Source of the DNA: Bacteroidales bacterium
GTDB taxonomy: Bacteria > Bacteroidota > Bacteroidia > Bacteroidales > ML635J-15
Direction: 5' to 3'
Assembly (NCBI GenBank): GCA_028686735.1
Contig: JAQUBO010000004.1
Coordinates: 1 to 53,399, forward strand
DNA length: 53,399 bases
Positions within the stretch are counted from its first letter, which is position 1. Each line of letters opens with the position of its first letter. Positions 24,629-28,576 of this stretch are shown piece after piece. Both the position numbers and the translations under genes were made by a program. The notes under the pieces were generated by a model that was not told where the DNA came from, searched no databases, and saw nothing but the letters and a program-made list of their open reading frames with translations.

Positions 24629-25506
24629 TACTGAGTAGGCAAGTAAATTAATTTAACATTATCGATATAAACTTCCGATTTTTCCAAACCCGATTCTTCT
24701 GCATATACAGCTGTAAAAAACAGTCTAAATTCCGTTCCACTAACATTATTTACAAAGTAATTTAAGTCAATATAAACTTTTTTCCATTCGTCAGTAGGAT
24801 TAAACCCGTATATGTGTTTTCGTATTTCATTAATACTCGAGCCAGTATATTCTTTTGAAAATATCCCAAAATTAAAAAAGTCATTTGACTTAAAATTAAT
24901 TTCGAGAAACGCTGGCCCATTTTTTTGAATCTCGAAAAGTTGAGAGCTACGGCACTCAAAATTAGGTCTATTCTTATCAACACAAAAGTACATTGACTTT
25001 CCTTCAAAGGCATTTTCATCAGACACTAAGTATATTACAGTATCACTTTGCTCACTAACCTGAAATTCAATGCCAATATCTTCAAAATCCTCTACCAAAT
25101 CAAATATGACTGCAGGTCTATATTCAAACACCGGATTTACTTTAACAATCTCTTTTTCTTCTAAAACCGTATTAATGCTATATCCGTTCATCATTTGATA
25201 AACCTCACGTGCGGCATTACCTCCCGAGTTTTTAATTCCAGGTTCAATTTGTATATCATGAGGACCTGACTCCAAAACCGGTACTGTAAAGGGGACTTCA
25301 AAAACACCTACGAGTTTATTATTTACATATAGCCAACAATCGCTTATATTGTGTGCAGCTGTACCTTGAGAAGGATTTGCAATTGAAATCGCAATAGTAT
25401 CAACTGATACATACGAAGGAATTTGTTCCGGAGGATTCATAATTTCGCAGGAATAGAAAAAAGAAACAATCACAATAATCAAAAACACAATTTTACCCAC
25501 AATCAC
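24628..25506 (-). CDS. Lipoprotein of unknown function coupled to the EPS transferase
   Basis: A 292-aa protein starting at GTG (25504-25506). The signal sequence ends SFFYSCEIMNPPE, a lipobox-like site. The N-terminal third (about 40-110) looks like a PEGA/Ig-like module (CWLYVNNKLVGVFEVPFTVP). The C-terminal half resembles a jelly-roll of the carbohydrate-binding or DUF type, with AFLEINFKSNDFFNFGIF and KVYIDLNYFVN and a final EVYIDNVKLIYL strand. The TAATG overlap with the transferase gene implies translational coupling, hence a role in surface polysaccharide is plausible but unproven. Confidence 0.7.
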   Translation of the reverse strand: MIVGKIVFLIIVIVSFFYSCEIMNPPEQIPSYVSVDTIAISIANPSQGTAAHNISDCWLYVNNKLVGVFEVPFTVPVLESGPHDIQIEPGIKNSGGNAAREVYQMMNGYSINTVLEEKEIVKVNPVFEYRPAVIFDLVEDFEDIGIEFQVSEQSDTVIYLVSDENAFEGKSMYFCVDKNRPNFECRSSQLFEIQKNGPAFLEINFKSNDFFNFGIFSKEYTGSSINEIRKHIYGFNPTDEWKKVYIDLNYFVNNVSGTEFRLFFTAVYAEESGLEKSEVYIDNVKLIYLPTQ

Positions 25507-25575
25507 TTTTTTTTACTTAATATGCACAATTAACAACGCAAAGATATATCTAATATTGCGTTCAAAGAAATAAAA

Positions 25576-26523
25576 TTATCCTATCGACAATTTTATTTTA
25601 TCTTTAATTTGAGATGCAACAGAGTATGTATTCAATATTGTCTCAAGATTTACCTCAGGAGACTTATTTAAAACAATAGATTTAGCAAAAGAAGAAAACT
25701 CATCATAATAATGATTATTAGGTTTTACAGGAATCGGATCTACTATTAAGTCACCAATATTCTCTTGAAACAACTTGATTTCACTATCCTGATTGCGTTT
25801 TTTTACTTGCCAAGCCTTATCTCTAATAAGGTCGATATTCGTATAGTCTTTATCGCAATAAAAACTAATCTCATGCGCATTGCTGGTAGCAATACGACCA
25901 GCAGTAAGTTGAGCCACTGCACCATTCATAAATTCTAAGCGTACATTAATAATATCAGGACTTATTTTACTTATGGTAGTTGCATTTGCATAAACAGCTT
26001 TAATATTCGATTTAATTATTCCCAAAACAATATCTATATCACTTATTAACATATCCATTAATACTGAGCAAGACGCTGTTTCACAAGAAAATTTCTTAAA
26101 ATAATTTGCTTGTATAAATTTTGGTTTTATAATAAATGGTTTGGCTGATAAAAATGTATTATTAAATCGATGATGAAAACCAGCTTGAACTTTAACATCT
26201 GCCTCATCAACAATATCAGATAATTTATTTACATCTCTATTGCAATAATCCGAAGATGGCTCAAAAAAAACATGCTTTGAATTTCGTACAAGTTCTTCAA
26301 CGTATTTTAAACCAGACATTGGTGATAGTGCAATAATTGCCTCAACTTCATTTACTAATAAAGACGGATCGGTATATGATTTGAGCTTATATTTTTGAGC
26401 GTCATTTGTGGTGTTATTATTCGGATTATACATACCGATAATATTAAGCTCTGGAACATCCATTATCTTTTCGATAATATTAAACTCATATTTTGGCAAT
26501 CCGTATATACCAGTTTTTATCAT
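25576..26523 (-). CDS. Degenerate Gfo/Idh/MocA-family oxidoreductase-like protein
   Basis: A 315-aa protein with the two-domain layout of the family: an N-terminal Rossmann-like part (about 1-115) and a C-terminal alpha/beta part. The family's GxGxxG dinucleotide loop reads GIYGLPKYEF here, and the catalytic EKP motif reads FFEPSSDY, so the Lys is missing. A later GFHHRFN segment matches the usual (G)xxxRF(N/D) helix. NAD(P) binding and dehydrogenase activity are therefore doubtful; it may be a pseudoenzyme or use another chemistry. It lies 70 bp upstream of the lipoprotein/EPS transferase pair, same strand. Confidence 0.75.
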   Translation of the reverse strand: MIKTGIYGLPKYEFNIIEKIMDVPELNIIGMYNPNNNTTNDAQKYKLKSYTDPSLLVNEVEAIIALSPMSGLKYVEELVRNSKHVFFEPSSDYCNRDVNKLSDIVDEADVKVQAGFHHRFNNTFLSAKPFIIKPKFIQANYFKKFSCETASCSVLMDMLISDIDIVLGIIKSNIKAVYANATTISKISPDIINVRLEFMNGAVAQLTAGRIATSNAHEISFYCDKDYTNIDLIRDKAWQVKKRNQDSEIKLFQENIGDLIVDPIPVKPNNHYYDEFSSFAKSIVLNKSPEVNLETILNTYSVASQIKDKIKLSIG

Positions 26524-26663
26524 ATTTTTTTTAGTAAAAATACTGCTTATTATTTATTTTTAATAAGGATGTTTCAAATGTTTTCAACTAATACATGTTA
26601 AAACCTTAAAACTTTAGATATTTCAAATGTCTTTACATCTCTGTTCTTTACTTGCGGAATAAA

Positions 26664-27253
26664 GAACACAAACTAGTTGGCAGAAAAACAAACATTAACC
26701 CCGTCCTTTAGAGCGGGATAAAAAACATAAACCAGTTGGCAGAAAAACAAACATTAACCCCGTCCTTTAGGGCGGGATCAAGAACACAAACTAGTTGGCG
26801 GAAAAACAAACATTAACCCCGTCCTTTAGGGCGTGATCAAGAACACAAACTAGTTGGCGGAAAAACAAACATTAACCCCGTCCTTTAGAGCAGGGACAAG
26901 AACACAAACGAGTTGGCAGAAAAAGAAACATTAACCCCGTCCTTTAGGGCGGGATAAAGAACACAAACTAGTTAGCGGAAAAACAAACATTAACCCCGTC
27001 CTTTAGGGCGGGGTCAAGAACATAAACCAGTTGGCAGAAAAACAAACATTAACCCCGTCCTTTAGAGCGGGATCAAGAACACAAACTAGTTGGCGGAGAA
27101 ACACACATTAACCCCGTCCTTTAGAGCGGAATAAAAAACATAAACCAGTTGGCGGAAAAAGAAACATTAACCCCGTCCTTTAGGACGGGATCAAGAACAC
27201 AAACAAGTTGGCGGAAAAAGAAACATTAACCCCGTCCTTCAGGGCGGGGAGCA
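26664..27253. repeat. Ten tandem copies of a 59-bp hairpin repeat
   Basis: Unit starts GAACACAAACTAGTTGGCGG and contains CATTAACCCCGTCC followed by TTTAGGGCGGGAT. Ten units fill exactly 590 bp (period 59), and a partial eleventh (GAACATAAACG) follows. Each unit has a GC-rich hairpin CCCGTCC-TTTA-GGGCGGG; copies vary at the hairpin (GAGCGGGA, GGACGGGA, GGCGGGGT). There are no unique spacers, so it is not CRISPR. No gene within. Confidence 0.9.
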
Positions 27254-27271
27254 AGAACATAAACGAAAAAA

Positions 27272-27393
27272 AGGGCTTTAGCCCTGACAGTAATATTAGC
27301 CCTGACAGTAATAAAAACTTTTAGGTTTAAAATATTCATGGCTAAAGCCAACAATAATTAACTAATTTACCCCGACCTAAAGGTCAGGGTAAA
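27272..27393. repeat. Cluster of further CTTTAG/CTAAAG-loop hairpins
   Basis: AGGGC-TTTA-GCCCT (27272-27285), the palindrome TGGCTAAAGCCA (27339-27350), and a stem around GACC-TAAA-GGTC extended by TTTACCC/GGGTAAA (27366-27393). AGCCCTGACAGTAAT occurs twice (27280 and 27298). All share the same loop type as the tandem array next to them. Confidence 0.65.
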
Positions 27394-27429
27394 TAATAAA
27401 TTGAAAACAGTATAGAAAATAACAGTAAA

Positions 27430-27688
27430 ATAATGTCCATCTATAGTGGTCAATTTCAGCATTTCTCCGCTAACCAAAGAATCAATATATCACGTTATAC
27501 TTGCATTATAGTCAGAAGTCCGTTAGCTGACGGATGAATGTTTTCAAAACAAGCATAACGTGATACATTGCTAAGTGCTGATCCGTCAGCCGACAGAGAA
27601 GTGAGCGGTGTCGAAACGAAGAATTTAGCAAAGCGGTATCATGAACACCGCTAAATTAAAATTCCATTGTGAGTAAATCGGACATTAT
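27430..27688. mobile_element. Miniature element-like segment with nested inverted repeats
   Basis: ATAATGTCC (27430-27438) and GGACATTAT (27680-27688) form terminal inverted repeats about 259 bp apart. Inside, TATCACGTTATACTTG near 27497 pairs 15/16 with CAAGCATAACGTGATA near 27549, and AGCGGTGT (27604-27611) pairs with ACACCGCT (27645-27652). There is no coding capacity. It is compatible with a MITE or REP cluster; no transposase nearby. Confidence 0.45.
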
Positions 27689-27766
27689 GGACAGACACTA
27701 TTTAAGTTTGAGTTTAAACTACCAACGATGTAAAACATAAAAAAATATTAGTTTTTTTCAATAATA

Positions 27767-27798
27767 CTTGCATATTCTTTATTCTTGTTATATCTTCG
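27767..27798 (+). promoter_or_regulatory. Promoter of tRNA-Arg
   Basis: CTTG at 27767-27770, a 20-bp spacer and TATCTTCG at 27791-27798 approximate TTTG-N20-TAnnTTTG with one mismatch in each box. The tRNA starts 15 bp later. Confidence 0.5.
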
Positions 27799-27813
27799 CA
27801 GCCCGAATAAAAT

Positions 27814-27887
27814 GGTCTAGTAGCTCAGCTGGATAGAGCAACGGCCTTCTAAGCCGTAGGTCTCAGGTTCGAATCCTGACTAGATCA
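27814..27887 (+). tRNA. tRNA-Arg (anticodon TCT)
   Basis: A 74-nt cloverleaf. Acceptor GGTCTAG pairs with CTAGATC (one G-T), discriminator A. D-arm AGCTCAGCTGGATAGAGCA. Anticodon stem ACGGC/GCCGT with loop CTTCTAA gives anticodon TCT, reading AGA. T-arm TCAGG-TTCGAAT-CCTGA. CCA is not encoded. Confidence 0.97.
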
Positions 27888-27905
27888 CTTAAAAATACTT
27901 AAACT

Positions 27906-27953
27906 AAAAACCTGTTAGCAAGCATTTCATAGAAACTTGATAGCAGGTTTTTT
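27906..27953 (+). terminator. Terminator after tRNA-Arg
   Basis: AAAAACCTG pairs with CAGGTTTTT (27944-27952), with inner CAAG/CTTG pairing, followed by a T-run. It is 18 bp after the tRNA 3' end. Confidence 0.75.
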
Positions 27954-28275
27954 ATATTGAGACATACGCATCAAAGACCCTTTTTCGGCTTCTTTATCCA
28001 TATTTTTAAAATCATTTATTATTATTTTGGGATTCCAATCTGCTGTTTTGTCTAATCTATTTTATTTTTGCGGTTCTAGTTGCCATAGTTGTTATGCTTT
28101 GTTTTTACAACGGCAAAATTTGAGAAAAAATTTAATCAAAAAGAAACATCTTTATCCATCATAAACCAAGCATTATTAAAAATTACTATAGCAATTATAA
28201 TCTAAAGAATTATGACAGGCAACTTAGATTTTTCTTTTGTCATAATTTTGGTTTTACTTTTTAAATCTTAATATT

Positions 28276-28398
28276 TTATCCAAATTTGCTTATCGGCTCA
28301 TTATACTCAACACAAGCCCTACAAATTGCATCCGTATAAGCACCTCTACAATATTCTTCTGCAATAATTAAACAATCTGCATAAGTTATATTAAACAT
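28276..28398 (-). CDS. Possible 40-aa Cys-rich small ORF
   Basis: Begins MFNITYADCLIIAEEYCRG and ends NEPISKFG; four Cys residues occur within 24 residues, two as CRAC. It may be a remnant of a larger gene or a true small protein. There is no recognisable promoter or homologue by eye, so this is tentative. Confidence 0.25.
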   Translation of the reverse strand: MFNITYADCLIIAEEYCRGAYTDAICRACVEYNEPISKFG

Positions 28399-28576
28399 AA
28401 AATCAATTAGAGCCACTATACATGCTGCTTAACTTTAAAACATCAAGCAAACAACAACAAAACAATTACGCACAAATTTATCACAATTAAATTGTGTTTT
28501 AATTTAAAATGATTCTAAATTAGAGCGATATTATTATTAAATGTTGTTTAACAATATAAAACCATAACAAAAATTT

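Follow-up and report, generated by a model that had tools for sequence, protein, structure and literature searches.

A tandem array of 59-bp hairpin units in a Bacteroidales genome as a probable gene-less derivative of an IS200-like element

The window analysed here, a stretch of 53,399 nucleotides (nt) from contig JAQUBO010000004.1 of the Bacteroidales bacterium assembly GCA_028686735.1, contains a tandem array of ten 59-bp hairpin units, and the question raised by this locus is what kind of element such an array represents. The window corresponds to contig C40 of a 4.25-Mb draft genome (404 contigs, 95% complete). A sequence-only reading had suggested either a structural role or a repeat expansion of the RAYT type (REP-associated tyrosine transposase, where REP stands for repetitive extragenic palindrome). 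With a probability of roughly 0.86, the array and its neighbouring hairpins are a gene-less (non-autonomous) derivative of an IS200-like insertion sequence, belonging to the branch of the Y1/HUH transposases that carries the Y---Q--HH signature. The observations behind this assignment are the architecture of the region, its dispersal in the genome, an empty site, a decayed gene that the same ends enclose in a genus-mate, and the enrichment of a loop and a tag beside related transposases. The array and the hairpins at its right edge comprise the following features.

26654..27264, plus strand: tandem array of ten 59-bp units, each consisting of left-end flank, hairpin H1 and linker (Tandem Repeats Finder, TRF)
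26699..27248, plus strand: ten H1 hairpins, CCCCGTCC-TTYA-GNGCGGG, some with mismatches (pattern search)
27230..27249, plus strand: last H1, CCCCGTCCTTCAGGGCGGGG, the left end of the composite (sequence, DNA fold, alignment with other copies)
27272..27285, plus strand: hairpin H2, AGGGCTTTAGCCCT (sequence; the same hairpin in copies on other contigs)
27278..27313, plus strand: 18-bp direct duplication starting within H2, a local scar (TRF)
27340..27349, plus strand: H2', GGCTAAAGCC, the inverse of H2; H2-H2' pairing is also possible (repeat search, fold)
27370..27389, plus strand: H1', CCCCGACCTAAAGGTCAGGG, the inverse of H1 and right end of the composite (sequence; minus-strand match with 3 mismatches)

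TRF, run on the window, reported 10.3 copies of the unit with 89% matches and a score of 945, and the pattern search placed ten H1 hairpins in register, starting at 26699, 26758, 26817, 26876, 26935, 26994, 27053, 27112, 27171 and 27230. The sequence-only count of ten tandem 59-bp hairpin repeats was thus reproduced for the hairpins, with the slightly higher figure from TRF, while its statement that every unit carries CCCGTCC-TTTA-GGGCGGG applied exactly to only 3 of the 10 units (26758, 26935 and 26994). A search with CCCCGTCCTTYAGNGCGGG at up to 3 mismatches gave 11 matches, ten of them in register and one inverted (27371-27389), as compared with a mean of 0.01 in 100 shuffles. The H1 loop was retained as TTTA or TTCA in 10/10 units; the right arm of H1 read GAGC in 4/10, and an A opposite the stem T was found solely in unit 27171 (1/10).

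At its right edge the array passes into a four-hairpin composite of the order H1(x10)-H2-H2'-H1', with TTYA loops on the left and inverse TAAA loops on the right. The three neighbouring hairpins named in the sequence-only reading were all present (AGGGCTTTAGCCCT at 27272-27285, GGCTAAAGCC at 27340-27349 and GACCTAAAGGTC within 27370-27389). They had been described as sharing one loop, and this was accurate for TTTA in H1 and H2 (TTCA in the last H1); H2' and H1' have TAAA, the reverse complement of TTTA, which makes the composite an inverted pair. When 27200-27400 was folded as single-stranded DNA (z -4.5), H1 and H1' formed separate hairpins and H2 paired with H2'.

The unit is dispersed in its own genome. 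A two-unit DNA query gave 70 matches down to an E value of 10, including the window's own, and the hairpin core at up to 2 mismatches was found 44 times; 11 of these matches lie in the window and 33 are spread over 14 other contigs, against a single match for the reversed control. Copy number differed among several loci, with 10.3 copies in the window, 5.8 on C13, 2.8 on C318 and 5.1 (of a 58-bp unit) on contig C122 of the genus-mate G010, while the end of C258 carries 2.5. The gene-less inverted hairpin composite, arms inverted, likewise occurs on several contigs, an architecture of the REPIN type. Whole composites are themselves repeated on C404 and C359 with periods of 631-666 and 332-394 bp, and several contigs of this incomplete metagenome-assembled genome terminate in these repeats (C258, C359). 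On C404, C190, C192 and C275, tandem units of 35-38 bp have lost the right arm of H1, as read by eye; an intact hairpin is therefore unnecessary for amplification. One locus on C404 (L095, 2900-5300) showed four higher-order repeats of about 630 bp, each composed of half-hairpin units, a composite and part of a second repeat family. When the whole region was compared with 99 relatives, with at most 5 candidates scored per relative, 8 matched at E ≤0.001, the strongest being the genus-mates G010 and G020. A related core was found in G077, of the same order, with 27 matches against 3 for the control.

The setting of the array in the window was compared with that in five genus-mates (G001, G003, G010, G012 and G020), using 25000-28560 as a DNA query. 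The features that define the interval are as follows.

25576..26523, minus strand: flanking open reading frame (ORF) of 315 amino acids (aa), its start towards the array, a conserved neighbour in relatives (ORF list, DNA match)
26650..27731, no strand: 1,082-bp block (array, composite, second repeat) missing from the same gene-tRNA interval in G020 (DNA alignment)
27814..27888, plus strand: tRNA-Arg (TCT), the other flank of the empty site (ARAGORN, DNA match)

The same gene-tRNA interval was recovered on contig C89 of G020 and contig C77 of G010. In G020 the aligned blocks stop at window position 26649 and restart at 27732, with 14 bp in between; in G010 they stop at 26626 and restart at 27737 (26627-27736 missing), with 32 bp in between. 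The array-composite block is an insertion relative to these two genus-mates. Among the matches listed for the contig carrying the flanking gene, no array match was found in G001, G003 and G012 (up to 40 candidates scored), and in G012 the tRNA match lay 3.7 kb away. The array sits between divergently oriented genes, the minus-strand ORF starting at 26523 and the plus-strand tRNA at 27814, and this position gives no support for a terminator role. An Rfam scan of 26000-28200 returned the tRNA as the only match over the gathering score. The use of rnfB as an anchor for the orthologous locus in 8 relatives failed, because DNA homology did not start before window 28.50-28.68 kb and no tRNA upstream of it was detected by ARAGORN.

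What had once stood between the hairpin ends is indicated by G010. Its contig C298 carries H1, linker and H2, then an ORF start (MSYVKVMLHAVF), an internal loss, a stop codon just ahead of a C-terminal part with YIMNQDEHH, and then H2'-H1'; the flanks on either side can be aligned with the window composite as well as with those on C404, C275, C192 and C388. On contig C82 of G010, at least two tandem copies of the left end plus gene remnant were found, and a third was partly unread (N). The ends of the window composite are thus shared with an element carrying a transposase gene of the clade described below, the gene being decayed there as well, and the composite can be read as the gene-less version of that element.

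In the genome of the window, a search with the clade profile (A1, see below) gave three short matches besides a non-clade gene on C250; by eye, those on C389 and C7 resemble decayed members of the clade, and the C7 match has TTTA-loop hairpins of its own. At the C7 locus (L334), CCGTCGGTTTTAACCGACGG and ATGTGGCTTTAGCCACAT come after the decayed clade-like transposase start and represent a further variant of the stem within the same hairpin code. None of the four genes of this genome that match the Pfam family Y1_Tnp qualified as the cognate gene, since the hairpins of the window are missing from all of them; those on C250 and C363 adjoin other tandem hairpins of their own. The C250 gene (L109, about 1310-1690) encodes a Y---Q--HH transposase outside the clade and lies beside its own tandem array of GTCCCTAACGGGAC hairpins. 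The C363 gene (L111, about 400-1700) lies amid repeated CACGACAGAGTCGTG and CACGATTCCATCGTG hairpins, and the Y1 transposase that it encodes is longer and contains YIHNNP; by motif only, this protein resembles class 2.6 of the 2018 survey discussed below.

The transposase clade was delimited from 103 Y1_Tnp loci, 99 from relatives (among the matches listed) and 4 from the own genome, and a tree was built from the 100 proteins of 100-260 aa, leaving out L110, L141 and L181. Eleven clade rows remained once the other 87 rows of their side were split off at 100/99; the bootstrap of the tree was not settled. By eye, all eleven genes were seen to have one or more TTYA- or TRAA-loop hairpins next to them, in unexpected orientation in L116 and L175. 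An early loose regular expression (CTTYAG/CTRAAG in a hairpin) had matched 9/11 clade loci and also 7/92 others (L134, L136, L145, L150, L153, L158 and L165), and L165, labelled as core ahead of the tree, was placed in the other group by it. An alignment of nine clade members gave profile A1, with which a collection of one genome per species was scanned; at least 581 relatives were confirmed and the best 80 kept. These best 80 came mostly from metagenome bins named Bacteroidota, Chlorobiota, Ignavibacteria, Calditrichia and Acidobacteria/Pyrinomonadaceae. A FastTree built jointly from 180 proteins put the 91 members on one side of a branch with none misplaced (0.986), a grouping partly expected because 80 of them had been chosen by likeness to A1. 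The Y---Q--HH signature was present in 80/80 loci of the best-80 set and in 10/11 clade rows of the first set; since it was also found in 84/103 Y1 proteins of the first set, the clade forms only part of what the signature covers. All nine A1 members matched Pfam PF01797 (Y1_Tnp), and the best match among solved structures was the ISHp608 transposase. With the NCBI models, the first A1 member passed IS200 (65.6 bits, cut-off 55) and failed REP_Tyr_transpos (27.5 bits, cut-off 80).

The flanks of the clade genes, which had played no part in the choice of loci, revealed a common end code. It was evaluated in 79 of the best-80 loci (L241, the same as L128, was dropped) by collecting, up to 350 nt from the gene, hairpins with an 8-bp stem, no more than 1 mismatch and a 4-nt loop of any sequence. 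A hairpin with a TTTA, TTCA, TAAA or TGAA loop was found near the gene in 76/79 loci, compared with 1/79 in flanks 1,150-1,500 nt away (at least 150 nt being present in 74 upstream and 65 downstream flanks) and 1/79 after shuffling. Other loops were infrequent (TTAA, 2 upstream and 1 downstream). The nearest loop was TTYA in 32 versus TRAA in 17 loci upstream, and TRAA in 58 versus TTYA in 9 downstream. The tetranucleotide ATTG stood right at the 5' foot of 82/182 loop-oriented hairpins and on the 3' side of 2/182, counting each tandem copy; other 5' tags included ATAG (29), CTTG (15), TTTG (11), GTTG (8) and ATTA (8). Per distinct stem, ATTG was present in 37/92 versus 1 on the other side, and 50/76 loci had at least one ATTG-tagged hairpin, while GTAG or GTGG tags were rare (2/76 loci). 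The mirrored consensus CAATTCA followed the nearest downstream TRAA hairpins (n = 62). There were 92 different 5' arms among the 182 hairpins, i.e., the stems vary and the loop is fixed.

A second hairpin accompanied the first in many loci. GGCTTYAGCC was found within 130 nt upstream in 46/79 loci and GGCTRAAGCC within 110 nt downstream in 55/79, each with 7 in the opposite orientation and 0/79 in far flanks. TRF repeats with periods of 31-271 bp containing such hairpins lay within 700 nt of the gene in 15/79 loci, and in L261 and L268 the repeated unit was H1-H2-H2'-H1' without a gene. Near Y---Q--HH proteins outside the clade, hairpins of at least 7 bp with any 3-5-nt loop were found in 33/74 loci versus 8/55 flanks 650-1000 nt away, and none of the loops predominated. 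In L173, a locus of the first set (contig C225 of G065; locus positions 1413-1755 and 778-938), both element ends were amplified separately: a 38-bp unit of the right end occurs 9.1 times and a 37-bp unit of the left end about 4 times.

From these features we infer how the array may have arisen. A complete element would consist of a tag (often ATTG), H1 with a TTYA loop, H2, the transposase gene, H2', H1' with a TRAA loop and the inverse tag. By analogy with IS608 and TnpA_REP, the transposase would bind the hairpins as single strands, read the T-T-Y-A loop and cut near the 5' tag or with its help. In the Marinomonas TnpA_REP, which recognizes a TTTA loop, in vitro selection and mutation are reported to show that bases 1, 2 and 4 (T, T, A) are required and the third is free (PMC8266576); the T, T, Y, A pattern kept here agrees with those needs, as an analogy and not as proof. 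In the window the gene would have been lost, leaving H1-H2-H2'-H1', and the left end (H1 with linkers) would have grown into ten head-to-tail copies, with replication slippage or unequal recombination as the most likely cause. The array unit would join the post-H1 sequence AAGAACATAAACGAG to the pre-H1 sequence AGTTGGCGG at a short AG overlap, which suits either route.

Several results weigh against this derivation from an IS200-like element or limit it. The window's own tag is CATTA(A) and not ATTG, and the H1 stems inside the array are mismatched. Units differed by 6.3 between neighbours versus 5.9 between distant units, which gives no support to recent single-unit slippage; as adjacent units are no closer than distant ones, the array is not fresh. 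With one mismatch allowed, TTYA was found upstream in only 37/79 loci, TRAA downstream in 62 and both in only 25, and opposite loops were common; strict Watson-Crick stems left fewer loci (32, 40 and 15, respectively, n = 80). One stem tested in 8 other genomes occurred 1-8 times and not genome-wide, all 8 copies of the top genome lying on one contig, and wide dispersal is thus shown only for the own genome and, with a related core, for G077. The insert also contains the second repeat family and need not equal one event, so that insertion in more than one step is possible. The A1 search found no intact clade transposase in this assembly, 95% complete in 404 contigs. With no intact cognate gene there, the array is probably a relic that grew by slippage or recombination.

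An improbable alternative is that the array was retained for a structural or regulatory role, as a transcription barrier, a nucleoid protein or gyrase site, or a supercoil insulator between divergent promoters. Such roles have been proposed for REPs elsewhere (PMC2817692, PMC3733652), and both the position between divergently oriented genes and the good single-stranded folding of 27200-27400 would suit them. However, the same interval lacks the array in G020 and G010, the array stems are mismatched, and other contigs have arrays with other copy numbers. We regard as highly improbable a plain minisatellite produced by slippage alone with no transposase link. The half-hairpin tandem units on four contigs, whose amplification did not need an intact hairpin, speak for it, yet the unit of the window leads into a four-hairpin composite that is dispersed and whose ends lie on either side of a transposase remnant in G010, and the presence of such hairpins beside related transposases in 76/79 loci already disfavours this explanation.

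The length of the unit also recalls integrons, whose attC sites were formerly called 59-base elements. An attC array is scarcely credible here: 59 bp is the only shared trait, whereas the units are contiguous and near-identical (89% matches), leaving no space for cassette genes, and the same hairpin type surrounds Y1 transposases.

Among known systems, the clade is closest in definition to TnpA_Y1 subclass 1.2 of Quentin et al. (2018), defined by Y---Q--HH, found mostly in Cyanobacteria and Bacteroidetes and entered with REP "no" in that survey (PMC6006769). The signature, a similar length (the paper's median is 148 aa) and the occurrence in Bacteroidetes are shared; the listing without REPs contrasts with the TTYA/TRAA hairpins found near the gene in 76/79 loci. 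The REP prediction of the survey required GTAG or GTGG, which is mostly missing from the clade ends. We consider it likely that a large branch of Y---Q--HH Y1 transposases, filed in 2018 as REP-less, has an end code of often two hairpins per end, a fixed TTYA loop, free stems and an ATTG-type tag. This branch would span Bacteroidota, Chlorobiota/Ignavibacteria, Calditrichia and Acidobacteria (Pyrinomonadaceae), spawn gene-less four-hairpin elements and end-specific arrays, and form a REP-like superfamily parallel to GTAG REPs. Among the openly licensed PubMed Central papers listed, no report of hairpin ends for subclass 1.2 was found; ISfinder and subscription papers were outside this search, and priority is not established. 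The string "bacteroid" does not occur in the main text of the 2021 paper on REPs (PMC8266576).

GTAG REPs and REPtrons (RAYT/TnpA_REP) share with the clade extragenic hairpins with a short 5' tag, often inverted, beside a Y1 transposase, and in Marinomonas the recognition of a TTTA loop. They differ in that the clade tag is mostly of the ATTG type, that there are often two hairpins per end, and that the transposase is nearer IS200 than the REP_Tyr model. The RAYT-type expansion suggested in the sequence-only reading was therefore right in essence, as the window's ends match those beside the Y1 clade and, in G010, enclose the decayed remains of such a gene, but the element is not a classical GTAG-tagged REP/RAYT, given the NCBI model scores of the first A1 member and the rarity of GTAG/GTGG. 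REPINs, as described by Bertels and Rainey (2011; PMC3116915), are likewise dispersed gene-less inverted hairpin doublets in ordered tandem clusters, some adjoining the transposase, and such tandem clusters were already known in Pseudomonas; here, the composite has four hairpins instead of two, amplification in the window is confined to the left end, and copies of the one stem are few in the 8 genomes. With IS200/IS605 elements of the ISHp608 type, the clade has in common the Y1/HUH transposase, hairpins at both ends and the best structural match; the clade differs in often having two hairpins per end, arranged as inverted repeats.

The loop-and-tag code links an under-described transposase group to its DNA ends, making these ends findable by sequence, and the recognition rule of a fixed loop and a free stem lends itself to tests with short oligonucleotides. 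That the constant loop bases T, T and A coincide with those required in vitro by the distant Marinomonas enzyme hints at an old or repeatedly evolved mode of recognition, and end-specific tandem amplification is one way in which a mobile element can give rise to a hairpin array.

The second repeat family occupies 27412-27735 of the window, inside the insert; it contains internal palindromes and has ATAATGTCC/GGACATTAT close to its ends. A query with 27395-27735 gave 48 match rows, with 27 other contigs of the own genome at E ≤0.001, and this family also follows composites on C404.
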